The notes under the pieces are model-generated. The model was not told where the DNA came from. It saw nothing but the letters and a program-made list of their open reading frames with translations, and did not search any database. From positions 62,001 through 126,000 of the forward strand of contig NZ_QWGB01000005.1 in NCBI RefSeq assembly GCF_003576345.1: DNA of 64,000 nucleotides, read 5' to 3'. The first letter of the stretch is position 1; each line of letters begins with the position of its first letter. Origin of the DNA: Henriciella barbarensis (lineage in GTDB: Bacteria > Pseudomonadota > Alphaproteobacteria > Caulobacterales > Hyphomonadaceae). The position numbers and the translations under genes are program-made. Shown in pieces: positions 5,387 through 50,305 of the stretch.

Positions 5387-6694
5387 TTATTCACCCCGGC
5401 TCTTACGCAGCTCTGCCCAGCGTTTCAGCCGCTCAGCGATGGGGCCTTCGCGCCCCTGCCCCTTGGGTTGGTAAAAACTTTCGCGCTTCATTCCATCCGG
5501 GAAATAGTTCTGGCCTGAAAAGCCGTCCTCGGCGTCATGGTCATAGGCATAGCCTTTGCCATAGCCCTCGCCCTTCATGAAGGCGGTGGGCGCGTTCAGG
5601 ATATGCTTTGGCGGCATCAGGGATCCGGTCTCTTTCGCGGCGCGCTGAGCCGCCTTCCAGGCGGTATAGACCGCGTTCGACTTCGGCGCCGTGGCGAGGT
5701 GAACGACGGCATGCGCGAGGGCCAGCTCACCCTCCGGGCTGCCGAGGCGCTCATAGGTGCGGGCCGCTTCACTCGCGATCATCAGCGCCGTCGGGTCGGC
5801 GAGGCCGATCTCCTCTGACGCCATGCGGACGATGCGGCGGGCAAGGTAGAGCGGATCTTCACCGCCTGTGACCATGCGGGCGAACCAGTAGAGCGCCGCA
5901 TCCGGGTCTGACCCGCGCACCGATTTATGCAGGGCGGAGATGAGGTTGTAATGCTCTTCGCGGTCCTTGTCATAAGCGGGCGCGCGCTTCTGGAGTGCCT
6001 GGCTCAGCGCCTCTGGCGTCAGTTCCGTCCCCTCATCAGCCAGCGTGAAGGCCTGCTCGGCAAGGTTCAGCATGTAGCGGCCATCGCCGTCGGCCATGTC
6101 GATCAGCGCTTCGCGGGCGCGCGGCTCCAGTGGCAGTTTGCGTCCCTCAAGCGCTTCGGCGCGGACGAGCAATTCTTCCAGTGCCTCTGGTGTCAGGCGT
6201 TTGAGCGTCAGCACCGCGCAGCGCGACAGGAGCGCGCCATTGATCTCGAAGCTCGGATTCTCCGTGGTGGCACCCACAAGGGTCACGACACCCGCCTCAA
6301 CGAAGGGCAGGAAGCCATCCTGCTGGGCACGGTTGAAGCGGTGGATTTCGTCCACGAAGAGCAGCGTGCCCTTCCCCGTGCTGCGCCGGTTCTCGGCCCG
6401 GTCAAACGCGGCGCGCAGATCCTTTACACCCGAAAAGACCGCGCTGATCGCCTCGAATTCGAGATCGGTTTCCTTGGCGAGCAGCCTGGCAATGGTCGTC
6501 TTGCCGACGCCGGGGGGGCCCCAGAAAATGATCGAGGAGAGGCGCTTCGTTGACAGCATCCGCCCAAGCGCGCCGTCAGGCCCGAGCAGATGGTTCTGCC
6601 CTACGACTTCGGACAGCTTTGCCGGGCGCAGCCTGTCAGCCAGCGGCCGAGGCGCCTCATCAGCCATACCCGAAGCGGAAAAGAGATCACTCAT
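5387..6694 (-). CDS. rarA: Replication-associated recombination protein A (AAA+ ATPase)
   Basis: RarA/MgsA, a cytoplasmic clamp-loader-like AAA+ ATPase that acts at stalled replication forks and interacts with SSB. The sequence shows Walker A (GPPGVGKTT), Walker B (LLFVDEIHRFN), sensor 1 (LVGATTENPS) and the conserved C-terminal tetramerisation region containing RGSDPDAALYWFARM and AEDGFSGQNYFPDGM. At 435 residues it is of normal family length. The ATG at 6694 is preferred over a GTG at 6703 because an AGGTG lies about six bases upstream. Its 3' end runs close to the M19 gene. Function is well established in the family and does not depend on the neighbours. Confidence 0.96.
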   Translation of the reverse strand: MSDLFSASGMADEAPRPLADRLRPAKLSEVVGQNHLLGPDGALGRMLSTKRLSSIIFWGPPGVGKTTIARLLAKETDLEFEAISAVFSGVKDLRAAFDRAENRRSTGKGTLLFVDEIHRFNRAQQDGFLPFVEAGVVTLVGATTENPSFEINGALLSRCAVLTLKRLTPEALEELLVRAEALEGRKLPLEPRAREALIDMADGDGRYMLNLAEQAFTLADEGTELTPEALSQALQKRAPAYDKDREEHYNLISALHKSVRGSDPDAALYWFARMVTGGEDPLYLARRIVRMASEEIGLADPTALMIASEAARTYERLGSPEGELALAHAVVHLATAPKSNAVYTAWKAAQRAAKETGSLMPPKHILNAPTAFMKGEGYGKGYAYDHDAEDGFSGQNYFPDGMKRESFYQPKGQGREGPIAERLKRWAELRKSRGE

Positions 6695-34844: not shown

Positions 34845-36350
34845 ATGAGGATCCAGCACTGGGAGTCTAGCAATTATAGCGGCCCGGCCAAGAAGGTTGA
34901 GACGCGGCACCCCCCATTAACCAAGAACACCTCTTCGCAGACTCACGCCGTTTACGCCGACTGGCTCGGCGACCACGCTTTCACGAAAATCCATGGCAGC
35001 CGCTTTGCCTATATCGTTGGCGAAATGGCACGCGGGATCGCAACGCCGCGCATGGTCATAGCAGCGGCGCAGGCTGGCCTTGTCGGTTTCTATGGCAGCG
35101 CCGGGCTGAAGCCTGAAACCATCGCCTCAGGTCTCGACGAGATCGAAGCCGCGCTCGGCAAAGGCGCGCCCGCCTGGGGCGCCAATCTCATACATACCCC
35201 GCAGCAGCCAGGCTATGAGCGTGCGGTCGTCGATCTTTTCCTGTCGCGCGGTGTCGCCCGCGTTTCAGCCTCCGCCTTCATGCAGCTGTCGCCGGAAATC
35301 GTGCGCTACAGCGCCGCCGGCGTCTCGCGCGCCGATGACGGTACCATCACCCGCTCCACACACGTCTTCGCCAAAGTCTCCCGCGCTGAGGTCGCCCGCC
35401 AGTTCATGGCCCCCGCGCCAGACGCGATCCTGAAACAGCTGGTCGCCCGCGCTGACATTACGCCAGAGCAGGCAGAGATTGCCGCCAGCGTTCCTGTCGC
35501 CCTCGACATCACCGCCGAAGCCGATAGCGGCGGGCATACGGACAACCGCGCCGCCGGGCCGCTCTTTTCCTCGCTGGTCCAGGCCCGCCGGGAGGTCTGC
35601 GAGATCCATAACCTCAATGGCGACGATATCCGCATCGGCCTTGGTGGCGGGATTGGCACGCCATGGGCGGCTGCGGCCGCATTCCAGATGGGCGCGGCCT
35701 ATATCATTACCGGCTCGGTCAATCAGGCCGCTGCCGAATCCGGCCTCTCGCTGGCTGGCCGAAAACTTCTCGCAGATGCTGGTCCGGCTGACGTCGCCAT
35801 GGCCCCGGCCGCCGACATGTTCGAACAGGGCGTTGAAGTTCAGGTCCTGAAACGCGGGACGCTCTTTGCCATGCGCGGGTGCCGGATGCGCGAGATCTAC
35901 AGGACCCGTACAGGCTTTGCCGACTGCACACCGCAGGAGCAGGCCTTCATCGAAGCCGCTCTTGGCGAGACCTATGCCTCCGCATGGGAAAAGACCCGCG
36001 CCTTCATGGCGGGGACCAATCCGAAAGAGCTGGAGAAGGCAGAAGCAGACCTTCGCCACCAGCTCGCCCTTGTCTTCCGCAGGTATCTTTTCTTCGGGGC
36101 CCAATGGGCCCGTGAGGGCGAGGAAAGCCGCCTGCGCGACTACCAGATCTGGTGCGGCCCGGCGATGGGCGCCTTCAATGAGTGGGTCAAGGGAAGCCCG
36201 CTCGAAGCGCTTGAAAACCGGACCGTCAAACAGATCGCGCTCAACCTGATGGATGGGGCGGCGCACCTGACCGGGCTTCAGGCCCGCCGGGCGCGCGGGG
36301 AGAACATTCCACAATCGGCTTTCGACTATCGGGCGGGGCTATTCGAGTAA
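34845..36350 (+). CDS. pfaD: PfaD-family enoyl reductase of PUFA/polyketide synthase
   Basis: A 501-residue flavin-dependent enoyl reductase of the PfaD family, a TIM-barrel protein acting in trans on the growing chain of a PUFA-type secondary lipid synthase. Typical segments are VGEMARGIATPRMVIAAAQAGLVGFYGSAGL, the FSSLVQARREVC element, IGLGGGIGTPWAAAAAFQMGAAYIITGSVNQAAAESG for the flavin phosphate loop, and DYQIWCGPAMGAFNEWVKGSPLE. It precedes pfaA by 27 bp, with a plausible shared transcript through pfaC and the acyltransferase gene. This order (pfaD first) differs from the pfaABCDE order of Shewanella. Confidence 0.93.
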   Translation: MRIQHWESSNYSGPAKKVETRHPPLTKNTSSQTHAVYADWLGDHAFTKIHGSRFAYIVGEMARGIATPRMVIAAAQAGLVGFYGSAGLKPETIASGLDEIEAALGKGAPAWGANLIHTPQQPGYERAVVDLFLSRGVARVSASAFMQLSPEIVRYSAAGVSRADDGTITRSTHVFAKVSRAEVARQFMAPAPDAILKQLVARADITPEQAEIAASVPVALDITAEADSGGHTDNRAAGPLFSSLVQARREVCEIHNLNGDDIRIGLGGGIGTPWAAAAAFQMGAAYIITGSVNQAAAESGLSLAGRKLLADAGPADVAMAPAADMFEQGVEVQVLKRGTLFAMRGCRMREIYRTRTGFADCTPQEQAFIEAALGETYASAWEKTRAFMAGTNPKELEKAEADLRHQLALVFRRYLFFGAQWAREGEESRLRDYQIWCGPAMGAFNEWVKGSPLEALENRTVKQIALNLMDGAAHLTGLQARRARGENIPQSAFDYRAGLFE

Positions 36351-36377: not shown

Positions 36378-39300
36378 ATGGCAGACAGAACGTCGGGACC
36401 AGCAGATATAGCCATTGTCGGATATGGCGCGATGTTTCCCGGGCGCGGCGACGCGGCGGGCTTCTGGCGCGATATTGCCGAAGGCGTTGATACGCTGGGG
36501 CCCGTTCCGCCGACGCATTGGCTGATCGAGGACTATTACGACGCCGACCCGAAAGCCCGGGACAAGACCTATGGCCAGCGCGGCGGCTTCCTCTCGCCTC
36601 AAGGGTTCGACCCACTTTCCTTCGGTATTCCGCCCAATCAGATCGAGGCCACAGACAGCGCCCAGCTCCTCGCGCTCATGGTGGCGCAGGCTGCGCTGGA
36701 TGAAGCGGAAAAAGCCTCCAATGGCACGATTGATCGCAAGCGCACCTCCTGCATTCTAGGCGTTGCCTCGGCCACCGAACTCGTCGGCCATATGTCGGGC
36801 CGTCTACAGCGCCCCTCCTGGATCAAGGGCCTGCGGGACGCCGGTCTTCCCGAAGCGCAAGTCCAGGAGATCGCCGATAAGATCTCGTCGAACTTCTCCG
36901 AATGGAAGGAAAGCACCTTCCCTGGCCTCCTTGGCAATGTCGTCGCCGGACGGATCGCCAACCGGATGGACCTTGGCGGCTCCAACTATGTCACGGACGC
37001 AGCCTGCGCCTCATCTCTCTCAGCCCTTCACGGCGCAATCCATGAGCTTCGCGCAGGCGACAGCGACCTTGTCCTGACCGGCGGTGTCGATGCCCTCAAT
37101 GACATCCTCATGTATATGTGTTTCTCGAAGACACCGGCCCTCTCACCAACCGAAGACTGCCGTCCATTCTCGGACAAAGCAGATGGTACGATGCTGGGTG
37201 AAGGCATCGGCATCCTGGCGCTCCGCCGCCTTGCCGATGCCGAACGGGACGGCAACCGGATCCACGCGATCATCAAGGGCATTGGCGCCGGCTCTGATGG
37301 GCGCGCCACCGCAATCTATGCCCCGCTACCTGATGGGCAGGCCCGCGCCCTTGGCCGCGCCTATGAACAGGCCGGTTATGACCCGCGCTCTGTCGAGCTG
37401 GTCGAAGCGCACGGCACAGGCACGAAGGCAGGCGACGCGGCTGAAATCGCCGGGCTGAAGCAGGCCTTCTGCGAAGAGGGCGAGATCGTCGATACGCCCT
37501 GGTGCGCCATCGGATCGGTCAAATCCCAGATCGGCCACACCAAGGCCGCCGCCGGATCAGCCAGCCTGATCAAGACGGCGATGTCGCTGTCCAGAAAAGC
37601 TCTGCCGCCAACGATCAAGGTCGACCAACCCAGCCCGGCGCTCGCAGGCTCCCCCTTCTATGTGAACCGCGAACTTCGCCCATGGGTGCGAGATAAATCC
37701 CATCCCCGGCGGGCGTCTGTCAGCTCCTTCGGCTTCGGCGGCTCGAACTTTCACGTAACGCTTGAAGAGTACACCGGCCCTCAGGCGGCCCTGCCAGACC
37801 GTATCCTGCCAGCAGAACTCTTCATGGTTTCGGCGAGCTCACCAGATGCGCTGGCGACGGCCATTGAAGCGACGGCGCGCAAACTGGTGCATGAAGAAGA
37901 CCTCGCCATCGCCGCCAGCGAAAGCCATGCAGCTTTCGAAGCAGATGCGACCTGCCGCGCGGCCATCACTGCCAGCAGCAATGACGACTTCAACGCAAAG
38001 GCCGCCAAGCTCGCCGCCCATATCCGTGCAGGCAACGCCGAGAGCGCACCGCTGCCGAAAGGAAGCAGCGTCAGCCTCAGCGCCGCCAAACCCGGCAAGC
38101 TCGCCTTCCTGATGCCGGGCCAGGGCAGCCAGTATGTCGGCATGGGCCGCGACCTCGCCCTTGCCTTCCCGGAGGCACGCGCCGCCTGGGATTATGCCGC
38201 CAGCCACAAGAAAGCCGGCAAGCTCGGCCTCCATCGCCTCGCCTTTCCGCCATCGGCCTTCAGCGATGAGGACGCGAAGGCGCAGGCCGACACGCTGACG
38301 GCGATGGAAAATGCCCAACCTGCACTTGCCGCCGCGACGATGGCTGTCCTCGCCGTTCTGGAAAAGGCCGGCCTCAATGCCGACATGGCCGCCGGTCACA
38401 GCTTCGGTGAGATCATGGCGCTCAACGCATCAGGCGTGTTGTCGGACAAGGATGCGCTGAGCACCGCCTGCAAGCGCGCCAAGCTGATGAGCCAGGCCGC
38501 CGCCGACAATGAAGGCGCGATGCTGGCCACACAGGCCTCGAGCGAACAGCTTGCGCCGATCCTAAAAAACCATCCGGACGTGGTCGTCGCCAATGACAAT
38601 GCGCCAACGCAGACAGTGCTTTCCGGCCCTGTCGACGCCATAGAGGCCGCCCGGCAAGCCATAGAGGCCGCGGGCATCAAGGCGCGCCGCCTTCCCGTTG
38701 CCTCGGCTTTCCATTCGCCGATTGTGGCTGGCGCTGTCGCCCCCTTCCGCAAGGCGCTCGGCAAGACCGATTTCGCCAAGGGCGACTTCCCGGTCTTCGC
38801 CAACGCGTCGGCCAAACGCTACCCGCTTGCCTATGACAAGCAGCGCGACCTCCTCGCCGGGCAAATCGAGAGCCCCGTGCGCTTCCGCGAAATCATTGAG
38901 GCGATGCATGAAGCCGGCGTCACAACCTTTGTGGAGGCAGGCCCCGGCACGGTGCTCACCGCTCTTGTCGGCCAGATCCTGCCCGGTGGGGTTAATGCCG
39001 TCTCGCTCGATGACAAGAAGGGCAATGGACTCGCCGCATTCCTCGCCGGGCTCGGTAAGCTTGCCGTCCTCGGACATAAGGTCGATTTCGAAGCGCTGTT
39101 CGCCAACATGCCCGCCCCAGACGCACGCAAGCCGCGCTCCAAGCACGCCATCGATCTCACCGGTGCGAACTATAACAAGCCCTACCCGCCAAAGGGCGGC
39201 GCTGCGGCCCTGCCACCGCCGAAAGCGGCGGCCTCGGTACCCGAGCAGGTGAGCAAGCCGGTACCTGACGACCCGCCAGACCCGGCGCCAGCACCTGCCC

Positions 39301-40280
39301 CTACTTCAACTGCTACTTCCCAGATTTCCCAGCCAGGACCTTCGCCCATGACTGAGCCCCGCCACTCCGCCCCCGCCAGCACGGCCGCGCAGATCCACGC
39401 CCAGATGACAGAGGCCCACACCGCCTACATGCAAGCGCTGCAGACGGCGCACGCCCAGTATATGCAGACCACGCAGGCCATGCTCGCATCGGCAGGGTCG
39501 GCCGCTGCGCCAGCGCCTCAGCCGCAGGTCCAGCCAGCAACCCAACCGGCGCCAGCTCCTGTAGCGGCCGCACCAGTGACGCCGCCAGCACCAGCCCCAG
39601 CCGCAGCGGCGACAGCACCAACCCCAGCGCCTCAACCGGCCCCTGCTCCCGCTCCGGCGCCAGCAGCCGCGCCCGCCCAGGACTTCACCGCGCTCGTCAC
39701 CAGCCTCGTTGCCGAAAAGACCGGCTATCCCGCCGACATGCTCGAACCAGACATGGACCTTGAAGGTGAGCTTGGCGTCGACTCCATCAAACAGGTCGAG
39801 ATCCTCTCAGCCCTGCGCGAGAAGATGCCCTCCCTACCAGAGATCGAGCCTGAACAGATCGCAGAGCTGCGCACCATCGCAAAGATCGCCGCTTTCCTCG
39901 GCCCATCGGCTGGCAGCGCGCCAGCACCGAAACCAGCCCCTGCCCCCGCCCCGGCAGCGCACGCAAATGGAAACGGCCATGCCAACGGCAACGGCCACCA
40001 CATCGCCGCCGCTCCAGCCCCGGCACCTGCAGCTCCCTCGGCAGACGCTGGCGTCGATATGACAGAGCTGGTCCGCAACCTCATCGCCGACAAGACGGGC
40101 TATCCGCCTGAAATGCTCGAAGACGATATGGACCTTGAGGGCGAACTTGGCGTCGACTCCATCAAACAGGTCGAGATCCTCTCTGCCCTGCGCGAGCAGA
40201 TGCCGAACCTGCCAGAGGTCGAACCGGAACAGATCGCTGAGCTGCGCTCGATCCGGAAGATCGCCGATTTTTTTGGCTAA
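36378..40280 (+). CDS. pfaA: PfaA-type polyketide/PUFA synthase subunit (KS-AT-ACP-ACP), ends at a putative frameshift site
   Basis: A 1300-residue modular synthase carrying out chain extension. KS at about residues 10-450 has the active Cys210 (DAACASS), His345 (EAHGTGT) and His387 (IGHTKAAAGS). AT at about 570-880 has Ser675 (AGHSFGE). A Pro/Ala-rich linker of about 140 residues precedes two carrier domains, each with GELGVDSIKQVEIL and phosphopantetheine Ser1136 and Ser1261. In known PfaA proteins a ketoreductase follows the carriers; here the frame stops (TAA at 40278-40280) and the ketoreductase continues in the -1 frame. The ATG is preceded by a purine-rich GAGGGGCTGAGAACAAC. Confidence 0.92.
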   Translation: MADRTSGPADIAIVGYGAMFPGRGDAAGFWRDIAEGVDTLGPVPPTHWLIEDYYDADPKARDKTYGQRGGFLSPQGFDPLSFGIPPNQIEATDSAQLLALMVAQAALDEAEKASNGTIDRKRTSCILGVASATELVGHMSGRLQRPSWIKGLRDAGLPEAQVQEIADKISSNFSEWKESTFPGLLGNVVAGRIANRMDLGGSNYVTDAACASSLSALHGAIHELRAGDSDLVLTGGVDALNDILMYMCFSKTPALSPTEDCRPFSDKADGTMLGEGIGILALRRLADAERDGNRIHAIIKGIGAGSDGRATAIYAPLPDGQARALGRAYEQAGYDPRSVELVEAHGTGTKAGDAAEIAGLKQAFCEEGEIVDTPWCAIGSVKSQIGHTKAAAGSASLIKTAMSLSRKALPPTIKVDQPSPALAGSPFYVNRELRPWVRDKSHPRRASVSSFGFGGSNFHVTLEEYTGPQAALPDRILPAELFMVSASSPDALATAIEATARKLVHEEDLAIAASESHAAFEADATCRAAITASSNDDFNAKAAKLAAHIRAGNAESAPLPKGSSVSLSAAKPGKLAFLMPGQGSQYVGMGRDLALAFPEARAAWDYAASHKKAGKLGLHRLAFPPSAFSDEDAKAQADTLTAMENAQPALAAATMAVLAVLEKAGLNADMAAGHSFGEIMALNASGVLSDKDALSTACKRAKLMSQAAADNEGAMLATQASSEQLAPILKNHPDVVVANDNAPTQTVLSGPVDAIEAARQAIEAAGIKARRLPVASAFHSPIVAGAVAPFRKALGKTDFAKGDFPVFANASAKRYPLAYDKQRDLLAGQIESPVRFREIIEAMHEAGVTTFVEAGPGTVLTALVGQILPGGVNAVSLDDKKGNGLAAFLAGLGKLAVLGHKVDFEALFANMPAPDARKPRSKHAIDLTGANYNKPYPPKGGAAALPPPKAAASVPEQVSKPVPDDPPDPAPAPAPTSTATSQISQPGPSPMTEPRHSAPASTAAQIHAQMTEAHTAYMQALQTAHAQYMQTTQAMLASAGSAAAPAPQPQVQPATQPAPAPVAAAPVTPPAPAPAAAATAPTPAPQPAPAPAPAPAAAPAQDFTALVTSLVAEKTGYPADMLEPDMDLEGELGVDSIKQVEILSALREKMPSLPEIEPEQIAELRTIAKIAAFLGPSAGSAPAPKPAPAPAPAAHANGNGHANGNGHHIAAAPAPAPAAPSADAGVDMTELVRNLIADKTGYPPEMLEDDMDLEGELGVDSIKQVEILSALREQMPNLPEVEPEQIAELRSIRKIADFFG
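39753..40199 (+). repeat. Two nearly identical ACP segments (direct repeat, 375-bp offset)
   Basis: The DNA around the phosphopantetheine Ser codons of the two PfaA carrier domains (39753-39824 and 40128-40199) is almost identical, including ATCAAACAGGTCGAGATCCT in both. This indicates recent duplication or ongoing conversion of the ACP unit. Such tandem carriers raise synthase throughput in PUFA synthases. Confidence 0.75.
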
Positions 40281-40315
40281 GGGGCGCGCCGGCGTCACCT
40301 GACGCTGCCCGCCCC
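40268..40315 (+). promoter_or_regulatory. Candidate programmed -1 frameshift signal at the pfaA/ketoreductase junction
   Basis: Seven T residues at 40268-40274 form the heptamer T_TTT_TTT in the pfaA frame (GAT TTT TTT GGC TAA). The stop TAA is three bases later. Six bases after the heptamer begins a predicted stem-loop: GGGGCG (40281-40286) pairs with CGCCCC (40310-40315), and an inner 7-bp stem (40290-40296 with 40301-40307, one G-U pair) closes the loop ACCT. A -1 slip puts translation straight into the ketoreductase frame, giving a predicted 1800-residue KS-AT-ACP-ACP-KR protein. A T-run is also a place for sequencing error or transcriptional slippage. Confidence 0.6.
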
Positions 40316-41779
40316 GCTTCGCGCGATGCTCGACCCGTTTCTGGTCCAGCGCCGCTTGCCCTGAAAGCCGTCGCCTATGTCAGCCAGTCTGCCATTGGAC
40401 GGGTAACGCCGGGCCTGCGCGAAGCATCGCTCATCGAGTGGGTCACGCCAGACCTCGCCGCAGCTGAGCATTTCATTGCCGCGCTTGGCGCATCAGGCTT
40501 TCAGGTCCGCGCCGTCACCGAACCGAGCGGGCAAGCCAACGCGCTGATCCTCGCGCATGGCCTTTCCAGCTCGCGTGAGACCTTGCACGCAGACGCCGTC
40601 GCCGCCCTGAAATCCGCCTCGCCGCAACTGGAAACACAAAGCGGCGCCGTCATCCTGCTGCAGGACACAGGCGGGCTTTTTCAGCCGCAGGACCACCGCG
40701 CCTGGCGCGGCGGCCTTTCCGGTCTTGCCCGCACCGCCGCACGCGAGTTCACAGCTGCCACCATCCGCCTCATCGATATCGACATGGCGGGCTTCGGCAC
40801 GTCGCTCGCCGCCAGCCACCTCGTCGAAGAACTCCTCACCGGTGGCACCGCGCCCACGACAGGCCTCAGCCCCGCTGGCCGCTATGTTCCGCAGGACAGA
40901 GACTTCACCCTGCCCCGCAACCAGCCCGGCCGCCTTGGCCTGCAGGATGTCATCCTCGTCACCGGCGGCGCACGCGGCGTGACCGCAGACTGCGTCATAG
41001 AGCTCGCCCGCCGCACCGGCGCGCGCTTTGCGCTTCTCGGGCGCTCCCCCGTGACGCCATGGCCAGACGGTTTGCCGACAACGACCAACGAGAAGACCCT
41101 GCGCGGCGCGCTCGCCAAAGCAGCAAAGGCCGCAGGCGAAAAGATCACCCCCGCCGCCCTCAACACCCGCGCCCGCGCGCTGCTCTCTGGCGCTGAGATC
41201 CGTGAAACCCTCACCGCGATCGGTCAGGCAGGCGGCGAGGCGCGCTACATCCCTGCAGACGTTTCGGACCCCGCCGCGCTCACCCAGGCGCTTGCCGATA
41301 TCCGCGCCGACCTCGGCGAAATCACCGGCCTCGTCCATGGCGCAGGCGTCCTCGCCGACAAGCTCATCCGCGAGAAGACACCAGAGCAGATCGCCCGTGT
41401 CTTCGGCCCCAAAATCGGTGGCCTCGATGCCCTGCTTACCCAGCTCGACACGTCAAAGCTGAAAACCATCGCCTTCTTCTCATCGGTCGCGGCCCGATAT
41501 GGCAATGCAGGCCAGGCCGATTACGCGATGGCGAATGAGATCCTGAACCGGATGGCCTGGTGGCTGAAATCGACCCATCCGGATGCCGCCGTCACCTCGA
41601 TAAATTGGGGCCCATGGGATGGCGGCATGGTGGATGATGGCCTCCACGCCAAATTCGCCGAGCTTGGCGTTGCCCTCATCTCAAAACCCGCAGGTGCCAA
41701 CGCCTTCGCCGACGCCGTGCTCGCTGGCCCCGCCTGCCCAGTCGAAATCGTTGCTGGCGCGGAGATCGCCCATGGCTAA
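40274..41779 (+). CDS. pfaA: PfaA-type ketoreductase segment in the -1 frame (C-terminal part of PfaA or separate KR protein)
   Basis: This is the ketoreductase part of a PfaA protein, shown as the -1-frame continuation of the preceding frame. It contains a noncatalytic structural half (SLIEWVTPDLAAAEHFIAAL to LRNQP region) and a catalytic half with the NADPH motif LVTGGARGVTADC. The Ser-Tyr-Asn residues lie in SSVAARYGNAGQADYAMANEIL, and the region LVHGAGVLADKLIREKTPEQ is highly conserved in PfaA. Upstream of 40583 the frame is fully coding-like, yet I find no ATG or GTG start in it. TTG at 40583 is the first possible start and would cut off half of the structural subdomain. It overlaps the next gene by 8 bp. 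Confidence 0.8.
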   Translation, partial: WLRGAPASPDAARPASRDARPVSGPAPLALKAVAYVSQSAIGRVTPGLREASLIEWVTPDLAAAEHFIAALGASGFQVRAVTEPSGQANALILAHGLSSSRETLHADAVAALKSASPQLETQSGAVILLQDTGGLFQPQDHRAWRGGLSGLARTAAREFTAATIRLIDIDMAGFGTSLAASHLVEELLTGGTAPTTGLSPAGRYVPQDRDFTLPRNQPGRLGLQDVILVTGGARGVTADCVIELARRTGARFALLGRSPVTPWPDGLPTTTNEKTLRGALAKAAKAAGEKITPAALNTRARALLSGAEIRETLTAIGQAGGEARYIPADVSDPAALTQALADIRADLGEITGLVHGAGVLADKLIREKTPEQIARVFGPKIGGLDALLTQLDTSKLKTIAFFSSVAARYGNAGQADYAMANEILNRMAWWLKSTHPDAAVTSINWGPWDGGMVDDGLHAKFAELGVALISKPAGANAFADAVLAGPACPVEIVAGAEIAHG

Positions 41780-44700
41780 GCCGACGTTTGAGCCCATTGC
41801 CATCATCGGCCGCGGCTGCGTCCTGCCGGGCGCGCTCACCCCGGCAGAGCTCTGGCAGGCCGTGCTGGACGAAAAGACCCTCATCACCGACGCCCCATCC
41901 GGCAAATGGGGCGTCACCGAAGCCGAGCATCAGGCCCTCGGCTACAAGGGCGCGTTCGTCACCGGCTTCGACAAGGTCTTCGACGCCGCCGCCCATGACC
42001 TCGGCGACACTGACGCCGCAGACCTCGATCCGGTCTTCCAGTGGCTGCTTCATGCAGGCCGCGAGGCCTGGCGCGAAGCTGGACAGCCCAAGAGCCGCAG
42101 GTCCCGCATTGGCGTCATCGCTGGCAATCTCGGCTATCCGAGCCGCGCCCTTTCTGACTTTGCCGCAGACATCTGGTTGGACGGTGCCTCCGACATCCAC
42201 CCACAGAACCGCTTCAACACAGGCGGCCCGGCGCAGCTTCTGGCCCGCGCCCTTGGCGCCGCTGGCCCGGCCTTCGCCGTCGATGCCGCCTGCGCCTCCT
42301 CGCTCTATGCCATCAAGCTCGCCTGCGACCGCCTGCAGGACCATAGCCTCGATGTCGTCATTGCAGCGGCGGTCAACGGCGCTGACAATCTCATCCTGCA
42401 TCAGGGCTTTTCAGCGCTCAACGCGCTCTCTCCTACTGGCCGCTCACGCCCCTTCGTCGATGGCGCAGATGGACTTGTCCCTGCAGAAGGCGCTGCCGCG
42501 ATCGTGCTTAAACGCCTCAGCGATTGCGACCTTGCCGACCGCGTCTTCGGCGTCATTCGCGGCATCGGCCTTTCCAATGATGGACGCCGTAAATCCCTCC
42601 TCGCCCCGGACGGCGACGGCCAGCGCGAAGCCATGACCGCAGCCTGGGCCGGTTCCGGCCTCGATCCTGCCCGCGATATCGGCCTCCTCGAAGCCCACGC
42701 CACAGGCACGCGCACGGGCGACGCCGTCGAGCTTGCCGCCACCGCCGCGCACTTTGATGGTTTGGAAAACCTCCCCATCGGCTCTCTTAAAGGCAATCTC
42801 GGCCACCTCATTACCGCCGCCGGCATGGCGAGCCTCATCAAGCTGACCTTCGCGGTGAATGAAGGCACCATCCCGCCGACCCGCCTTGAAGGCGACGCCA
42901 TTTCCGGCTTCGAAGGCAGCGGTCTGACACCTGCCCGGCAGGGCAAGTGGCCGGACGACCGTCCCCGCGTCGCCGCCCTCTCAAACTTCGGATTTGGCGG
43001 CAACAATGCGCACCTCATCCTAGCTGCGGATGACGGCCACCGCGCACGCCGCACCCCCGTCAAAGCCGCCAGCAAAGCAGTCCCGGTATCCATCACCGCC
43101 ACCGGCCTCTCCCTTGGCCCGGATCGCGGCGTCGCGCGCGTGCTTCAACGCCTGATGCGCCCGCCAAAGGATGCGCGCGGCCCGTTGCTCGAGACCCATG
43201 CCGACCCAAAAGCGCTGCGGGCGCCACCATCCGACCTTTCGTCCGCGCAAGGCCAGCAAGTCGCGCTATGGGACACAATCGATGAAGCCCTTGCCCGCGT
43301 CGCCATTCCGGACGGTGCCCGCGTCGGCGTCTTCACCGGCTTTGCCTGCTCACCCGAAGCCACCCGCTGGATGCTGCGCGCTCGCATCGCATCTCGTCTG
43401 GGCCTCGATCCGGAAGCAGCCCAGACAGATGACGCCCGCAACGCCATCGCCCCGCCACTGAAGGCAGGCGACGTGCTCGGCGCCATGCCGAACGTCTCGG
43501 CCAACCGGATCAATGTACGCGGCGACTGGCGCGCGCAAGGGTTCGCTGTGATGGAAGAGGAGGCCTCCGGCCTTCGCGCCGCAGAGCTTGCGATCCGCGC
43601 GCTTCAGGCCGGCGAGATTGACGCAGCCATCGTCGCTGCGGCCGATCTCTCATCGGACCTTGTTCACCGCGCCAGCGGCAGCCCCCTCACCGGCGACGGC
43701 GCCGCCGCGCTCATCCTGATGCGCAGCGAGGACACTCCCGCCGCCACCGAAATCCATAATCTGCGGCTCGAAGCCGGCACACCGCCGAACGCCCTCCTCG
43801 GCCGTATCTATGGCCACGCCCATGCTGCCGGCGGTCTGGTCCAACTCGCCCTGCAGGCCGAGGCCGCACAGCGCGGTCTTCACCTGACCGATCAAGGGCT
43901 CGTCCCGCGCCTTGCCACCGGCAAGGACAAACCGCCTGTGGCGGGCGCGAAACTCAAACTGAAAGCCTCGCCACACGCGGCGCCAGACCTGCTCCGCCCG
44001 TCTCCTTTGCTCGAAACCTACGCCGCAGAAAACCGCGACGCGCTGGCGGCCTCTATTCAGTCTGGCGAACAGAATACCCAAGGCGATGTCCGGGTCGCCC
44101 TCCTCGCCTCTCGCCCCGAAGAAATGACAGCCCTCCGCCTCGAAGCGATTTCACGGCTGAGGTCAGGCAGGCTTGAAACCGGCGGCGGCATCCATTTCGG
44201 GGAAGGCAGCCCAAAGGGAGAGCTCGCCTTTGTCTTTACTGGCGCAGCCGCCGCCTATCCCGGCATGGGGCGCGACCTCTTCTCGGCATTCCCCTCCCTC
44301 GGCAAGCTGATGACGAAGCGTTTCCCGACCGCGCAGACCGTTGCCGACACGCTCGCGACCGGGCTCGAAAGCGCGTTCAGCCAGCTTCGCGCGACAACGC
44401 TGGTCTCGCAGGCCCAGCATCTGCTCCTGACCCAGAAACTTGGCCTCAACCCAACCGTCGCCATGGGGCTTTCGTCCGGTGAAACCAATTCGCTGATCGC
44501 CTTTGGCGCATGGGTCGACGCCGATGGCCTGATGGGCACGATTGGCGAAAGCGGCATGTATGATCGCTATCTCGCCGGGACATTCGACACTGCACGCAAG
44601 GCATGGGGCGAGAAAGCCCCGATCGAGTGGGCGACATGGCGCCTGCGCACCAGCGAGGCCTCCGTCCGCGATGCCGTGAAACCAGAGCCGCGCTGCGATA

Positions 44701-47700
44701 TCACCATCATCTATAGCGCCAATGATGTCGTGATTGCGGGGGAGGCCGTCGCCTGCCAGCGCGTCATCAAACGGCTTGGCGCGCCCGCCATCCGCGTGTC
44801 GCATGACCTCACCGTCCACACGCCCGCCATGGCCTCCTATGAAAAGACCTGGCACCAGCTCCACTTCCGCAAGACGAAAGCGCCAGACGGCGTGCGCTTC
44901 TATGCCAACGCGATAAATGGCAGCTACAAGGTCTCTGCCGACAGCGCCGCCAACATGCTGACCGCGCAGGCCGTCACCCCCATCAACTTCCCCGCCACGC
45001 TGCGCGCCGCCTATGCGGACGGGGTGCGCACCTTCGTGGAAATCGGCCCGCGCGACACGCTGACCGGCGCCATTCAGGATACGCTGGGGCCCAAAACCCT
45101 TGTGCTGCCAGCTGACCGGTTTGGCGCCCCCGCGCTCGACTGTATCGCCGCCCTCGCCGCCCATCTTTTTGCCGCCGGCCATGCCATCAATATGGACTGG
45201 CTCAAGCGCGAGCTGACCGAAGCGGCCGCAAATACCATCCCGTTACGCATTGCGGACAAGACATCGGTTACCTTCGCCGCACATATCAAACCGCCGCGAC
45301 TGCCAAAGCTTGCCAGACAGCCGAAACCGACGGCCCGCCGCCGCCTCGCGCTTCCGAAGTTCCCATCCATCGACCCAGGCTCGCTTCCTTCTGCCAAGCC
45401 GATCCGGGCACGCACCCTGCCACTGCCGCCTGGCACAAGCTGGACGCCACCTGTCGTAAAAACTGTCGGAGCTGCTGTTCTGGAACGCACGAGAGCGGCC
45501 ACCCCGCCCACGCCTCCTAAAGCGACGCCGCCCAAGACGGTGACAGCAAAGCGGGCCTCACCTGCGCCTGCGCAACCGCGAAAGTCCATCACGCCGCTTG
45601 ATCGAAAGGCCCCCACAGGCGCCTCCTTTACCCGCGCCGATATCGAACAGGCCGCCGTTGGCAACATCTCCAGCGTTTTCGGCAAAGCCTTCGCCGCGCA
45701 GGATAAATACCGCCGGCAAGTGCGTATGCCGCGTCCGCCCATGCTGCTCTGCGACCGGATCACCGGCATCGATGCAGACGCGCTCGTTCAGGGCAAAGGC
45801 ACGATCTGGACCGAAACAGACGTCACCGCAGACCTCTGGGCGGTCAGCGACGGCATGCTGCGCCCCGGCCCCCTAATTGAGGCAGGGCAGGCAGACCTCG
45901 CGCTCATCTCATGGATGGGCGCCGACCTCCTGAACTGTTCCGACAGGGTCTACCGCCTGCTCGGCTGCGAGCTCACCTTCCATGAAGGCGGCCTGCCGCG
46001 TGTGGGTGAAACCCTGCGCTTCCAGATCTCCATCAAGGGCCACGCAGAGCTCTCTGGCGTGCGCATGTTCTTCTTTGAATATGACTGCTACGCCGACGAA
46101 CGCCTGCTGCTCTCGGTTCGCGATGGCCAGGCAGGCTTTTTCACCGATGAAGAACTTGCCAACTCAAAGGGCGTGCTCTGGGACGCCGAAGAAGCCGGCG
46201 CCCCAACGCCTGACCCCCGCCTCGACGCGGCCGCGCCAACAGGCAAGCGCAGCTTCAGCGCCGATGAGGTCGCCGCCTTCCGGTCGGGCGACACCTATCG
46301 CTGCTTCGGCGACGGCTTTGAGCGCGCCGCCCCGCACACCCGTCCTGCCCGCCTGCCGGACGGCAGGCTCGCCCTCTTCGATGAAGTTGTTGAGTTCGAG
46401 CCGGAGGGAGGCCCCTGGAAGCGCGGCTATCTGAAGGCGCGCCACCATGTTTCGAAAGACGCCTGGTTCTATGACGGCCACTTCCACGAAGACCCCTGCA
46501 TGCCGGGCACGCTGATGGCAGAGGCAGCCGTTCAGGCGCTTGAGTTCACCGCCGCCGGACTTGGCCTCACTATTGAGCGCGACAGCCATGTCTTCGAACC
46601 AGCCCCCGGCGAAGCGGCGACCTTTTATTGCCGCGGTCAGGTCACCCCGGACGCCGACCATGACGTGACCTATGAGGTCTTTGTCGATGAAGTAATCGAC
46701 GGTGAAGAACCGATGGTCTTCGCCAGCCTCTTGGCCCGCTCCGATGGCCGCAAGGTCTTCTACTGTCCACGCTTCGGCGTGCGCCTGCGCCGCCAATGGC
46801 CGAAGCCAGACAATCTCGGGGCCAGCCCTCATTATGTGAATCCAGGCTGCGATGTACGGGGCGATGAGATTGCTCTGATAGAATGCGGGTCAGGTGCGCC
46901 AAGCAACGCCTTTGGCAGCATGTATGCGCCCTTCGACACAATGGGCGCTGTCCCCCGCCTGCCGCAGCCGCCCTATCACATGGTCAGCCGCGTCATTTCG
47001 GTATCAGAACCTGCAGGCCAGCAGGGCGCAGGTCTCGAAGCCGTCGCTGAATACGACATTCCAGAAGACGCCTGGTATTTCGAGGATGGCGGCACGGGCA
47101 CGATGCCTTTCAGCGTGCTGACCGAAGTCATCCTTCAGCCCTGCGGCTGGCTCGCCTCCTATTCAGGCTTTGCCCTCTCCGGAGAGACGCGCTTTCGCAA
47201 TCTCGATGGCAGCGGCAAGCTGCATCGTCAGGTCCGGCCCGGCGACGGCATGGTCCGCACGACCACAAAACTCACACGCTGTTCGCGCGTCGGTCCGATG
47301 ACCATTGTCTTCTTTGCGCTCGAAGCCACGCTCGCCGACGGCACGCCTATCATCTCGCTGGAAACGAGCTTCGGCTTCTTCACCAAAGCCTCGCTCGCTG
47401 CACAGGCCGGCCTGAAACCAACCGATGCCGACCGCGACTTTGTGAAAGCGCCAGCAGACCCGCCAAGCGAAGCAGACACTCGGCTCAAGGCCTCACAGAA
47501 CCGTCTCGCCCTCTTCGATGTCATAGACCGGTTCGAGCCGACAAGCGGCGAGGCAGGTCTTGGCCGTATCCGCGCGCGCCAAGCCGTCGATCCCTATGCC
47601 TGGTACTTCAAGGCGCACTTTTTCTCTGACCCGGTCCAGCCCGGCTCGCTTGGTCTCGATATGCTGGTCCAGCTTCTGGCCCGGGCCGCAGATCTCAAAG

Positions 47701-49088
47701 GGTACGCAGACAGGTTCGAGCATCCGGTCTGGGAGCCAATAGCCGAGACCCATGAGATTAACTGGACTTATCGCGGACAGGTCATGCCGACCGCGAAGCA
47801 AGCCACCCCTATGGTCGAAATTCTCGGCGTCAAAGAGCGCGATGACGCCACCGTCATTACCGGACGCGGAGTCCTCTGGGTCGATGGGCTCAAAATTTAT
47901 GAGATGCGCGAACTGAGTGTCCGGATATGTACCGCCCATGCACCGTCACTGCACCGTCACTGCACCATGTTTTCTGTGGGAAATGACGGCTGGCTCCAGT
48001 CGCATCGTCCGACCCACACTCTCCCCTCACTCCCCCTCCTGGCACAGGCTGGCATGGCCCTGCGACAGGCCCGCGCCGCAGGCTTTGAAGGCTATCCTAT
48101 TGAATTGAAGGCGTTTTCACCAAAGCGCTGGGGCAGCCTTGGCGGTGATGGCCTCAGCGTTGAGACCAGGGTCACGCCGGACGGAGAAGCCCGTCTACGC
48201 GGCCGCGATGCCCTTTCCGGCGACGCACCCTGGTATGAAGTTTCCGCCGGAAAGATCAGCCAGCCCGTGCGCGGACCTAAACCGAAACTCCAGCCGAAAA
48301 AGCATGGAAAGAAGCGCGGCGATCCTTACGCATCGGGCGACCTTTTCCACGGCCCGGCCATGCAGCCCGTCATCTCCATGCGCCGCGACGCAAAGGGATT
48401 CGAAGCTGTTCTGGACCTCGGCGCGGCGATAGATCCGGGGGACCCGTTCGACCCCGTCATACTGGACGGGCTGGTGCATGGCCCGCCGCATGAAACGCCT
48501 GAAGAGTGGTTCGATGATGCGGGAAATAGCGCGATCTACCCCGTCCGGATCGAGCGCCTCACCGTGCTTGGTCCTCTCCCGGAAAGCGGCAAACTCACTG
48601 TAAGAGGCCGCCGTCAACGGCGGCCTGAAGGCTCTGACGACCTGCCTGTTCTGATCGAAGCCTATCTCGAAGATGGTAGCCTCTGGGCCCGGCTCAATCT
48701 GATTGAGAAAGCCTACCCGAAAGGCAAACTCGGCGCGCTTAACCCTCTGGCACGAAAAGCTTTTCTGACCGGCGAAAATGATCAGGTGGTTGCCCCCCTA
48801 AGCTGGGAGCAAAGCGGAAGATCACTTGTTTCACCCGCAGATATCATGGCCTGCGACTGGCTCCCCGGTACGGTTGCCGCCGCCTGGGGTCTTGAAGGCT
48901 TGACTGGCGCCGACCTCATCAAGGGCGTCGCGGTGAAGGAATTCTTCGCCCGCAAATGGGGTATCCATCCGCAAAAGCTGACGCTGGACCCACCTTTCGT
49001 CACAGGCCCGAACGCCCGTAGCCGTTACGATTTGCGCTTCGACAAGTCCGAAAGGGCCTGGTCGGTAGGAGATGAGCCCCATGGATAG
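41772..49088 (+). CDS. pfaC: PfaC-like megasynthase: KS-CLF-AT-DH(hotdog x4)-PKS-DH
   Basis: A 2438-residue synthase subunit. KS (about 1-430) has Cys174, His309 (EAHATGT) and His345 (GNLGH). The second KS-like domain (about 440-760) has Glu residues near 596 instead of the Cys, typical of chain-length factors. The AT (about 820-1150) has GLSSG with Ser901 and resembles PfaB. After a basic Pro-rich linker come four FabA-like hotdog units; the second (GHFHEDPCMPG, His1570) and fourth (AHFFSDPVQPG, His1949) keep the His, while the first and third are variant. Residues about 2050-2430 form a PKS-type dehydratase with SHRPTHTLPSLPLL (His2078), FHGPAMQPV and FDPVILDGLVHG. ATG at 41772 overlaps the KR stop. 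Confidence 0.88.
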   Translation: MAKPTFEPIAIIGRGCVLPGALTPAELWQAVLDEKTLITDAPSGKWGVTEAEHQALGYKGAFVTGFDKVFDAAAHDLGDTDAADLDPVFQWLLHAGREAWREAGQPKSRRSRIGVIAGNLGYPSRALSDFAADIWLDGASDIHPQNRFNTGGPAQLLARALGAAGPAFAVDAACASSLYAIKLACDRLQDHSLDVVIAAAVNGADNLILHQGFSALNALSPTGRSRPFVDGADGLVPAEGAAAIVLKRLSDCDLADRVFGVIRGIGLSNDGRRKSLLAPDGDGQREAMTAAWAGSGLDPARDIGLLEAHATGTRTGDAVELAATAAHFDGLENLPIGSLKGNLGHLITAAGMASLIKLTFAVNEGTIPPTRLEGDAISGFEGSGLTPARQGKWPDDRPRVAALSNFGFGGNNAHLILAADDGHRARRTPVKAASKAVPVSITATGLSLGPDRGVARVLQRLMRPPKDARGPLLETHADPKALRAPPSDLSSAQGQQVALWDTIDEALARVAIPDGARVGVFTGFACSPEATRWMLRARIASRLGLDPEAAQTDDARNAIAPPLKAGDVLGAMPNVSANRINVRGDWRAQGFAVMEEEASGLRAAELAIRALQAGEIDAAIVAAADLSSDLVHRASGSPLTGDGAAALILMRSEDTPAATEIHNLRLEAGTPPNALLGRIYGHAHAAGGLVQLALQAEAAQRGLHLTDQGLVPRLATGKDKPPVAGAKLKLKASPHAAPDLLRPSPLLETYAAENRDALAASIQSGEQNTQGDVRVALLASRPEEMTALRLEAISRLRSGRLETGGGIHFGEGSPKGELAFVFTGAAAAYPGMGRDLFSAFPSLGKLMTKRFPTAQTVADTLATGLESAFSQLRATTLVSQAQHLLLTQKLGLNPTVAMGLSSGETNSLIAFGAWVDADGLMGTIGESGMYDRYLAGTFDTARKAWGEKAPIEWATWRLRTSEASVRDAVKPEPRCDITIIYSANDVVIAGEAVACQRVIKRLGAPAIRVSHDLTVHTPAMASYEKTWHQLHFRKTKAPDGVRFYANAINGSYKVSADSAANMLTAQAVTPINFPATLRAAYADGVRTFVEIGPRDTLTGAIQDTLGPKTLVLPADRFGAPALDCIAALAAHLFAAGHAINMDWLKRELTEAAANTIPLRIADKTSVTFAAHIKPPRLPKLARQPKPTARRRLALPKFPSIDPGSLPSAKPIRARTLPLPPGTSWTPPVVKTVGAAVLERTRAATPPTPPKATPPKTVTAKRASPAPAQPRKSITPLDRKAPTGASFTRADIEQAAVGNISSVFGKAFAAQDKYRRQVRMPRPPMLLCDRITGIDADALVQGKGTIWTETDVTADLWAVSDGMLRPGPLIEAGQADLALISWMGADLLNCSDRVYRLLGCELTFHEGGLPRVGETLRFQISIKGHAELSGVRMFFFEYDCYADERLLLSVRDGQAGFFTDEELANSKGVLWDAEEAGAPTPDPRLDAAAPTGKRSFSADEVAAFRSGDTYRCFGDGFERAAPHTRPARLPDGRLALFDEVVEFEPEGGPWKRGYLKARHHVSKDAWFYDGHFHEDPCMPGTLMAEAAVQALEFTAAGLGLTIERDSHVFEPAPGEAATFYCRGQVTPDADHDVTYEVFVDEVIDGEEPMVFASLLARSDGRKVFYCPRFGVRLRRQWPKPDNLGASPHYVNPGCDVRGDEIALIECGSGAPSNAFGSMYAPFDTMGAVPRLPQPPYHMVSRVISVSEPAGQQGAGLEAVAEYDIPEDAWYFEDGGTGTMPFSVLTEVILQPCGWLASYSGFALSGETRFRNLDGSGKLHRQVRPGDGMVRTTTKLTRCSRVGPMTIVFFALEATLADGTPIISLETSFGFFTKASLAAQAGLKPTDADRDFVKAPADPPSEADTRLKASQNRLALFDVIDRFEPTSGEAGLGRIRARQAVDPYAWYFKAHFFSDPVQPGSLGLDMLVQLLARAADLKGYADRFEHPVWEPIAETHEINWTYRGQVMPTAKQATPMVEILGVKERDDATVITGRGVLWVDGLKIYEMRELSVRICTAHAPSLHRHCTMFSVGNDGWLQSHRPTHTLPSLPLLAQAGMALRQARAAGFEGYPIELKAFSPKRWGSLGGDGLSVETRVTPDGEARLRGRDALSGDAPWYEVSAGKISQPVRGPKPKLQPKKHGKKRGDPYASGDLFHGPAMQPVISMRRDAKGFEAVLDLGAAIDPGDPFDPVILDGLVHGPPHETPEEWFDDAGNSAIYPVRIERLTVLGPLPESGKLTVRGRRQRRPEGSDDLPVLIEAYLEDGSLWARLNLIEKAYPKGKLGALNPLARKAFLTGENDQVVAPLSWEQSGRSLVSPADIMACDWLPGTVAAAWGLEGLTGADLIKGVAVKEFFARKWGIHPQKLTLDPPFVTGPNARSRYDLRFDKSERAWSVGDEPHG

Positions 49089-49662
49089 TTTCGAGATCAT
49101 CCCTGTTACTGGCGCAACGCTGCCCCTCGTCCAGCACCTGCGCTACCGCGTCTATTGCGCCGAGAAACAGTTCGCCATGCCTGGCGCTGACCATGACAAT
49201 CGTCTGCTGCGCGATGATGCTGACCAACTGGGCGAAACCTTCGCCCTGTTCGATGGCGCAGATCTCGTCTCCAGCGCGCAGGTCATCCCCGTCCATGCGA
49301 GCGAAGCGTCTGAAAGGTTTCCGGTTTTCGATCTAGGATCGGTCCTCGCTGACGGGGAAAGCTGTGTCGTGGTCTCAAAACTGGTCACGGCACCTGAGCG
49401 TCGAGGTTCAAAGACACTCGGCCCGATCATGCGCGCCGTCCTCGACTATGTCGCCCGCGACAAGCATCGCTACATCGCCATTCTGGCCGAAGCGCAGATG
49501 CGAGAATTCTATGGCTCCATGGGGTTCGATATCCGCAAGGAAGGCATCAACGCGCCGCCCTTTGGCACTGTTTCCCTTATGGTTTTTGATATGCATGATG
49601 AGCGCCACACAAGCGGGCGGTCACTTGCCGGCTGGATGTTCAAATCTATTTTTGCGCGCTGA
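49081..49662 (+). CDS. GNAT/autoinducer-synthase-like acyltransferase coupled to pfaC
   Basis: A 193-residue protein of the GNAT fold resembling the acyl-homoserine-lactone synthase/FeeM (N-acyl amino acid synthase) group. Seen are LRYRVYCAEKQF, DNRLLRDDADQLGETFALF, VVVSKLVTAPERRG and MREFYGSMGFDIRKEG. The ATG at 49081 (with GGAG nine bases upstream) overlaps the last codons of pfaC, so translation is coupled. An alternative start is 49072. This suggests it uses the product of the synthase, for example to transfer an acyl chain from ACP to an amine or small molecule. That is inference from context. Confidence 0.8.
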   Translation: MDSFEIIPVTGATLPLVQHLRYRVYCAEKQFAMPGADHDNRLLRDDADQLGETFALFDGADLVSSAQVIPVHASEASERFPVFDLGSVLADGESCVVVSKLVTAPERRGSKTLGPIMRAVLDYVARDKHRYIAILAEAQMREFYGSMGFDIRKEGINAPPFGTVSLMVFDMHDERHTSGRSLAGWMFKSIFAR

Positions 49663-50305
49663 ACGCCAAAGTGCAAACGGCATCGGGGCCAGCATCGATC
49701 ACTGAAAGTGCTAGCGACACGCCACGATCATGAATTGTAATTGTGTCGGCGCGCCCGTGTATGAACGCCAGCGGTATTTCAACACTCTTCGCGCCGCCGC
49801 GCAGACCTTCTCCCCGGCATTTCAGGACCGCTTCCTTGGCCGTCCATAGCCGGTAGAAAGCGGCAAGCTGCGCCGTCTCATTACCCGCCGACGCAACAGC
49901 AGCTGCCTCTGTTCCGCTCGCGGTCATTGTCAGGACAGCGCCCGTATCGCGCGCAATCACCCGCTCGATATCGATGCCGACGATCCCCCCTCCGGAAAGG
50001 GCCGCTGCCGCCACTGGCCCTGACTTCGACCAGCTGAGGGCCACATCAGGCGCCCTGGGGAGTTCGGGGCGGGCATCGTCATAGCTTTGGAGAACGGGCG
50101 TTTCCATTTGCGGGCGACGCTGCTGGATCAGATGGCGCATAAGCCACCTTGCATGCAGGAAATCAGCTACGTCTTCGCCGCGCCTCAGTTTCGATGCACG
50201 GCTTTTCTCTACCGCGTCGGCCGGATCGAAAACGCGTTGAATGCCCCGCCTGTCGGAAATGGCCCAATCTGGGCCAGCAGCCAGAGAGCCGCCTTTCACC
50301 TTCAA
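49646..50305 (-). CDS. 4'-phosphopantetheinyl transferase superfamily protein (PfaE-like)
   Basis: A Sfp/PfaE-type phosphopantetheinyl transferase that would attach the CoA-derived arm to the Ser of the PfaA carriers. The diagnostic motifs GIDIERV and FYRLWTAKEAVLKCRGEGL (Mg2+- and CoA-binding) are both present. It is convergent with the acyltransferase gene (17-bp tail overlap). Its start is uncertain: the longest frame starts with TTG at 50305, overlapping the ecfG stop (TTGA), and a GTG at 50299 is an alternative. Proximity to pfaA/pfaC makes it their likely activator. The operon context with the stress sigma factor is unusual. Confidence 0.88.
   Translation of the reverse strand: MKVKGGSLAAGPDWAISDRRGIQRVFDPADAVEKSRASKLRRGEDVADFLHARWLMRHLIQQRRPQMETPVLQSYDDARPELPRAPDVALSWSKSGPVAAAALSGGGIVGIDIERVIARDTGAVLTMTASGTEAAAVASAGNETAQLAAFYRLWTAKEAVLKCRGEGLRGGAKSVEIPLAFIHGRADTITIHDRGVSLALSVIDAGPDAVCTLAFSAQK

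Follow-up and report, generated by a model that had tools for sequence, protein, structure and literature searches.

A putative programmed -1 ribosomal frameshift between the acyl carrier and ketoreductase domains of PfaA-type synthases in Henriciella and its relatives

We analyzed a 64,000-nucleotide (nt) stretch of the 3.33-Mb genome of the marine bacterium Henriciella barbarensis (contig NZ_QWGB01000005.1, positions 62,001 to 126,000; hereafter the window), which contains a pfaA-type synthase gene whose ketoreductase (KR) lies in a different reading frame from the preceding ketosynthase (KS), acyltransferase (AT) and tandem acyl carrier protein (ACP) domains. The best explanation for this arrangement, to which we assign a probability of about 0.92, is a programmed -1 ribosomal frameshift that would yield both a KR-plus and a KR-less synthase, and going by the sequences, a form that ends in the KR and a form that lacks it are probably both present in the cell. 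The evidence comprises the anatomy of the junction, its conservation, a covarying downstream stem, coding in the -1 frame, the absence of a start codon common to the loci, similar junctions built on other heptamers and a signal of mirror-image polarity in fused relatives. In the mechanism we propose, ribosomes on pfaA would reach T_TTT_TTT with a hairpin ahead; part of them would continue to the TAA stop and release KS-AT-ACP-ACP, while in the others both Phe tRNAs would slip back by one base, TGG would be read next and translation would run on into the linker and KR (Table 1). We infer that the slip occurs at some rate and that both proteins enter one synthase complex; its purpose would be to determine the number of KR-bearing PfaA subunits.

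The 3' end of the PfaA-type open reading frame (ORF) reads GAT TTT TTT GGC TAA in the zero frame, and re-reading of positions 40268-40280 bears out this ending and the in-frame T7 heptamer, both of which had been pointed out in a preliminary description of this DNA. The KR frame is at -1 relative to pfaA, is open from 40241 and ends with a stop codon at 41777-41779. Codon counts agree with the continuation into a 501-codon frame and with the 1300- and 1800-residue products that had been proposed, the longer one consisting of 1299 codons before the slip and 501 after it. As had also been described, this frame has neither ATG nor GTG for over 300 nt; the approximately 300 nt scanned in the window contain no ATG, GTG or TTG until a TTG at 40583. 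At the matching place of the first ACP, the Henriciella PfaA protein is encoded by TTC CTC. The closest named KR among the matches listed is that of Henriciella marina, at 95% identity.

Table 1. Features of the pfa cluster and of the pfaA/KR junction (window coordinates)
Feature	Coordinates	Strand	Evidence
pfaD-like enoyl reductase gene	34845..36350	+	TIGR02814 pfaD_fam, 532.9 bits (over cut-off 449.25)
pfaA zero frame: KS-AT-ACP-ACP, 1300 amino acids (aa), KR-less product	36378..40280	+	Pfam KS, AT, two PP-binding stretches; TIGR02813, 988.6 bits
Slippery heptamer T_TTT_TTT (T7), X_XXY_YYZ type in zero frame	40268..40274	+	
6-nt spacer GGCTAA: single sense codon and zero-frame TAA stop (40278-40280)	40275..40280	+	
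Probable stimulatory hairpin: 6-bp outer stem GGGGCG/CGCCCC and inner stem	40281..40315	+	Folding, covariation
-1 frame: linker and PfaA ketoreductase, 501 codons	40274..41779	+	TIGR02813 match, third-position drift
KR domain proper	40952..41620	+	PF08659, 121.6 bits
pfaC-like gene: KS, AT-like, three FabA-type dehydratase stretches	41772..49088	+	Pfam on 41619-49085
Phosphopantetheinyl transferase	49646..50305	-	PF01648, 54.4 bits

The junction is conserved across the Hyphomonadaceae. Of 105 genomes searched, 56 carry this KR (E <= 1e-60), and 55 junction loci were read, leaving out G776, whose contig begins inside the KR; one of them (L152; L numbers denote loci) has no ACP in the stretch read, which gives 54 junctions. 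Every one of the 54 has a heptamer (T_TTT_TTT or T_TTT_TTC), then a single sense codon, then a stop; the KR lies at -1 in 53. Within these 53 loci the heptamer is T_TTT_TTT in 37 and T_TTT_TTC in 16, and the zero-frame stop is TGA in 20, TAG in 19 and TAA in 14. Codon chance does not explain the conserved heptamer, since the junction pair starts with TTT in 53/53 loci compared to only 7 of the 35 Phe-Phe pairs found elsewhere in them, 26 of which are TTC TTC; overall, Phe codons elsewhere in these loci number 720 TTC and 265 TTT. The comparison of relatives proposed in the preliminary description thus found the heptamer, spacer, stop and covarying hairpin conserved, and neither of the two outcomes that it had named as contrary appeared: no T count fusing the frames was seen in the 54 junctions, where the T6 sites read T_TTT_TTC and are still slippery, and a long fused KR frame was found in none of the 56 genomes with a KR (open frames 243-619 aa). 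The irregular L127 and the draft state of many assemblies could suggest a decaying gene or a sequencing error, but we reject this explanation given that the same junction recurs in 53 of 54 loci, some from one-contig genomes, and that no Hyphomonadaceae row has a stop within the KR match.

The substitution pattern among six same-genus loci indicates that a conserved protein is encoded in the -1 frame past the slip. Between nt 42 and 105 past the slip, 17 of the variable columns are third positions of KR-frame codons, 8 are first and 6 are second positions; the corresponding counts are 24, 5 and 5 for nt 105-210 and 19, 11 and 6 for nt 210-320. Among 13 loci, gaps past the slip are 3, 12 or 15 nt long. 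In the six loci, 4 columns vary within the initial 42 nt, which span the heptamer end, stop and hairpin, and 31 vary within the 63 nt that follow. These data also bear on the possibility of two separate proteins, in which ribosomes would reinitiate past the pfaA stop and begin the KR at a start codon of its own. An ATG that overlaps the stop in L136 and a KR-frame GTG at +77 in several Hyphomonas loci would suit reinitiation, but there is no shared start: the window has roughly 300 nt lacking ATG, GTG and TTG, and the starts of other relatives differ in place. Moreover, KR-frame coding drift is already evident from nt 42 past the slip, and reinitiation leaves the conserved heptamer and hairpin unexplained. 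We consider this explanation highly improbable.

The stem-loop that the preliminary description had placed 6 nt past the heptamer is borne out by comparison of relatives rather than by folding of a single sequence. We folded the 46 nt after the stop in 48 distinct Hyphomonadaceae sequences, L127 included, and found that pairing begins at the first base past the stop in 47 of them. The mean fold energy at the junction is -24.9 kcal/mol compared to -9.1 to -15.8 at nine control offsets, with base-shuffle z-scores of about -2.05 and -0.53 to 0.16, respectively. Covariation was counted in 35 same-register sequences (33 distinct), in which L127 and L136 were retained; the 13 other sequences, with bulged or shorter stems, were outside this count, and their own folds give a comparable outer stem. 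In the same-register set, 80.1% of cells are paired versus 71.7% in shuffles, and 51 cells are doubly changed versus 19.6 in shuffles, with every slid version lower. Stem pair 4, for example, is A-U in 13 sequences, G-C in 12, G-U in 7 and otherwise composed in 1.

The same polarity, with KR at -1, recurs in other lineages. Among 80 named KR loci, a subset of a larger match list, the KR frame relative to the last ACP is -1 in 22, +1 in one (L055) and the same in 53, which include L096, the named copy of L127; four have no ACP in the stretch read. Twelve of the 22 belong to Henriciella/Hyphomonas kin, and in all ten named -1 junctions outside the Hyphomonadaceae kin a heptamer begins 7-22 nt ahead of the stop; as a control, any heptamer occurs in 306 of 6686 30-nt linker windows from 50 fused relatives, and at least one is present in 27 of the 50 linkers. 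The junctions comprise A_AAA_AAG (L084, L101) or an A9 run (L041) in Paenibacillus, C_CCT_TTG in Acidimicrobiales (L054, L070, L107; each with a predicted hairpin directly after the stop), C_CCT_TTT in Mycolicibacter nonchromogenicus (L081), A_AAA_AAC in Pelagicoccus (L048), an A10 run in Mucilaginibacter (L080) and an A9 run in Nostoc (L097). A survey of Paenibacillaceae found the KR in 4 of 197 genomes (E <= 1e-80), always as a separate frame of 788-815 aa, and L153-L155 from this family have A_AAA_AAG followed by TAG. Two further Nostocales loci (L161, L162) have A9 runs at the junction and KR at -1. By eye, a Shine-Dalgarno-like AAGGAG precedes the L084 and L101 sites.

The preliminary description had offered transcriptional slippage as an alternative, in which the T7 run would be transcribed with one base too many or too few such that part of the mRNA carries the KR in frame. 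T7 is a homopolymer, and the A9-A10 runs at the L041, L080, L097, L161, L162 and L055 junctions are of a kind that polymerase slippage could use, so it is possible for these lineages. It is weaker as a general explanation because 16 of 53 Hyphomonadaceae sites are T6C and heptamers elsewhere (C_CCT_TTG, C_CCT_TTT, G_GGA_AAG, A_AAA_AAC and A_AAA_AAG) contain no long homopolymer. Polymerase slippage also has no obvious need for a covarying hairpin 6 nt downstream, which is typical of ribosomal frameshift signals. Altogether, we regard it as very unlikely. For L055 (Elusimicrobia, near 5757), where an A10 run precedes a KR that is +1 relative to the ACP frame, polymerase slippage is the more likely mechanism.

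Reading of the in-frame relatives revealed, unexpectedly, a mirror-image signal in many fused genes, in which a -1 slip would reach an early stop; varied heptamers and either polarity within one gene family are what one would expect if the cell has a use for both products. In a first mycobacterial group, with 28 KR matches in 25 of 346 genomes (E <= 1e-130) and 26 loci in which an ACP was read, all 24 fused loci have C_CCT_TTT with a -1 stop, TGA, directly after it, in 21 distinct downstream sequences, whereas synonymous shuffling predicts 1.5 of 24. The remaining two loci, known from one assembly each, are flipped, with a zero-frame stop and KR at -1: L186 is the M. nonchromogenicus site also read as L081, and L198 has C_CCT_TTC. 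TTT is the junction codon in 25/26 loci versus 9/154 Phe codons elsewhere, and CCT in 26/26 versus 146/1307, both comparisons being uncorrected for relatedness. A stem of about 21 pairs begins approximately 6-8 nt downstream in most of these loci, and 56-nt energies average -40.8, with z -5.64 versus -0.46 for controls (22 distinct sequences). One register is common to 20 of 23 distinct sequences; among these, 91.2% of cells are paired compared to 84.7% in shuffles and 30-49% in slid versions, and 34 cells are doubly changed compared to 11.8 in shuffles. Judged by these comparisons, a mirror-image signal in this group is nearly certain.

For gammaproteobacterial PfaA we turned to the order of Shewanella, where 80 of 394 genomes have the KR (E <= 1e-80), and read 72 loci. 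All 72 carry the KR in the frame of the last ACP. In 42 of them A_AAA_AAG is followed by a -1 stop no more than 8 codons away, 10 have another heptamer or a late -1 stop, and 20 have no heptamer. Around the site, the Val, Ala, Leu and Pro codons of the 43 A_AAA_AAG contexts differ, whereas the codon preceding AAA AAG ends in A, as the heptamer requires (by hand count CTA 32, ATA 6, GTA 4, CCA 1); AAA AAG without a preceding A occurs in only 4 distinct linker contexts. Lys-Lys is written NNA AAA AAG in 27 of 39 distinct linker contexts versus 0 of 20 elsewhere (Fisher 1e-7, a p-value that is too small since the contexts are related by descent). Synonymous shuffling predicts a heptamer with a -1 stop within 5 codons in 22.5 of 75 loci, and 53 were observed. 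Downstream folding is modest (z -1.36 versus -0.37). From these contexts, a mirror-image signal in gammaproteobacterial PfaA appears likely. By eye, GAGGT, a candidate Shine-Dalgarno-like stimulator, precedes many of the A_AAA_AAG sites.

Further candidate mirror sites come from smaller groups. In a second mycobacterial polyketide synthase group (L288, L290-L293), C_CCA_AAA lies in the linker of 5 of 7 fused loci, and 3 of 7 have the near -1 stop, compared to 0.3 expected by synonymous shuffling; CCGCGG hairpins were seen in some loci of this group. The Myxococcales L064 and L071 and the fused Nostocales L281 and L282 have G_GGA_AAG, one codon and a -1 stop, an arrangement that is suggestive only and is not found in Myxococcales L045 and L073. 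In Nostocales L172 and L173, G_GGA_AAG appears in the opposite polarity to that of L281 and L282, together with an ATG at +23.

The presence of a hairpin and slippery codons at this domain boundary in both fused and split genes raises the possibility that the signal mainly pauses ribosomes between ACP and KR for co-translational folding or assembly, with any slip a by-product. We think this unlikely. Split genes offer no route to the KR other than a slip or one of the rival mechanisms discussed above, the -1 stop directly follows the heptamer in 24/24 fused mycobacterial loci, and L186 and L198 have flipped polarity while keeping heptamer and hairpin.

On a quick tree of 75 KR proteins, which is approximate and has long branches, polarity changes at least seven times (L055 unscored). 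It seems reasonably probable, on sequence comparison, that PfaA-type synthases of several phyla, including marine gammaproteobacterial and mycobacterial ones, are dual-product genes using a -1 slip at the ACP-KR boundary, that the slip-dependent product is interchangeable and has flipped repeatedly, and that selection keeps the product pair rather than its polarity. Among the sequences read, the signal is not universal, as Acidobacteriia and many other fused relatives are without such a site. No heptamer was found in the fused Acidobacteriia L038, L040, L042 and L044, nor a mirror signal in fused Acidimicrobiia (none in L274 and L069, one heptamer with a late -1 stop in L156). Mirror sites show no excess in fused Nostocales and Acidimicrobiia (4 of 8 versus 2.9 expected) and a modest one in other fused lineages (12 of 41 versus 6.4). 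Some loci with KR in another frame do not fit: L157, in which a GTG overlaps the stop, and L171 have a -1 KR frame without a heptamer in the overlap, L165 and L168 have KR at -1 as separate genes 557 and 908 nt off, and L163, L166, L167 and L170 have separate KR genes at +1. No ACP was present in the stretch read for L152, L160, L164, L169, L177, L197, L279 and L287; the heptamer scan left out fused L158 and L159, and counts leave out the weak matches L020-L024 (25-27% identity).

Several observations weigh against a programmed frameshift. The RNA folding check proposed in the preliminary description gives a result only mildly better than shuffles: positions 40255-40345 folded alone give z -1.32, and 20 of 200 shuffles are as good. 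The single Henriciella sequence is insufficient to prove the stem, and the case for it rests on comparison. RNAalifold, applied to one ungapped alignment of all 48 sequences, whose stem registers differ, gave no consensus structure. L127 (the same locus as L096; Hyphomonas sp. L-53-1-40) keeps the heptamer and TAA, but past the stop its KR is found in the zero frame and the stem has no 3' arm, so that either the signal was lost naturally or the draft sequence is in error; L136 combines a weak 3' arm with its KR-frame ATG overlapping the stop. Clear downstream structure was not found at the Paenibacillus sites (4), the Nostocales A-run sites (2) or in the second mycobacterial group (5 sequences). 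Finally, according to one study, U_UUU_UUU is far less shift-prone than A_AAA_AAG in Escherichia coli constructs (PMC5009743).

The nearest known parallel is dnaX of E. coli, in which a -1 frameshift gives tau and gamma and the slip leads to the short product. As proposed for the pfaA/KR junction, one gene specifies two products differing C-terminally by means of a tandem slippery heptamer and a downstream hairpin. The preliminary description had drawn this comparison, and it extends further than was proposed, as the mirror-image arrangement is present in many fused genes of other lineages. The dnaX slippery site is named as A_AAA_AAG in the cited study (PMC5009743), and this heptamer is also found in Paenibacillus and gammaproteobacterial PfaA. 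However, pfaA belongs to another pathway, a slip in Henriciella would give the long product rather than the short one, and the pfaA family displays both polarities. The -1 frameshifts of insertion sequences and viruses similarly use X_XXY_YYZ, a spacer of a few nt and a stem-loop to fuse two frames by slipping, but the Henriciella case concerns a cellular megasynthase and not a mobile element. We found no report of frameshifting in PfaA among the literature titles and abstract openings listed, a provisional result given that most subscription journals lay outside the search. Automatic annotation is likely to label such split genes as broken. If our reading is correct, the KR content of a megasynthase would be set by the ribosome, and moving or recoding such PUFA (polyunsaturated fatty acid) or polyketide synthase genes could shift the subunit ratio unnoticed. 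Moreover, these genes would form a natural series in which one recoding event seemingly keeps two products while heptamer, hairpin and polarity are swapped, so that why a frameshift is conserved becomes directly testable.

The surrounding genes agree with a PfaA-type assignment. KS, AT, tandem ACP and KR occur in the order of PUFA-synthase PfaA (TIGR02813) and have pfaD- and pfaC-like neighbors. When scored separately rather than joined, the zero frame alone reaches 988.6 bits against the TIGR02813 cut-off of 1010.1 and the KR frame alone 285.3 bits (model positions 1911-2267); the two match the model in order, and each stays under the cut-off because the protein is split. By comparison, a Shewanella PfaA example is one uninterrupted chain scoring 3647.5 bits on the same model, whereas in Henriciella the KR lies in another frame and two ACPs were found. 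The pfaC-like gene would start at ATG 41772, overlapping the KR stop, and the phosphopantetheinyl transferase may have a pfaE-like role. Upstream of the pfaD-like gene lies a 939-aa ORF (31834-34653, + strand) with only a partial match to phosphoenolpyruvate carboxylase (PF00311). Directly 3' of the pfaC-like gene, at 49072-49662 (+ strand), is a FeeM-like N-acyl amino acid synthase gene (PF21926), and given this neighbor the cluster product may be an acyl amino acid instead of a free PUFA.

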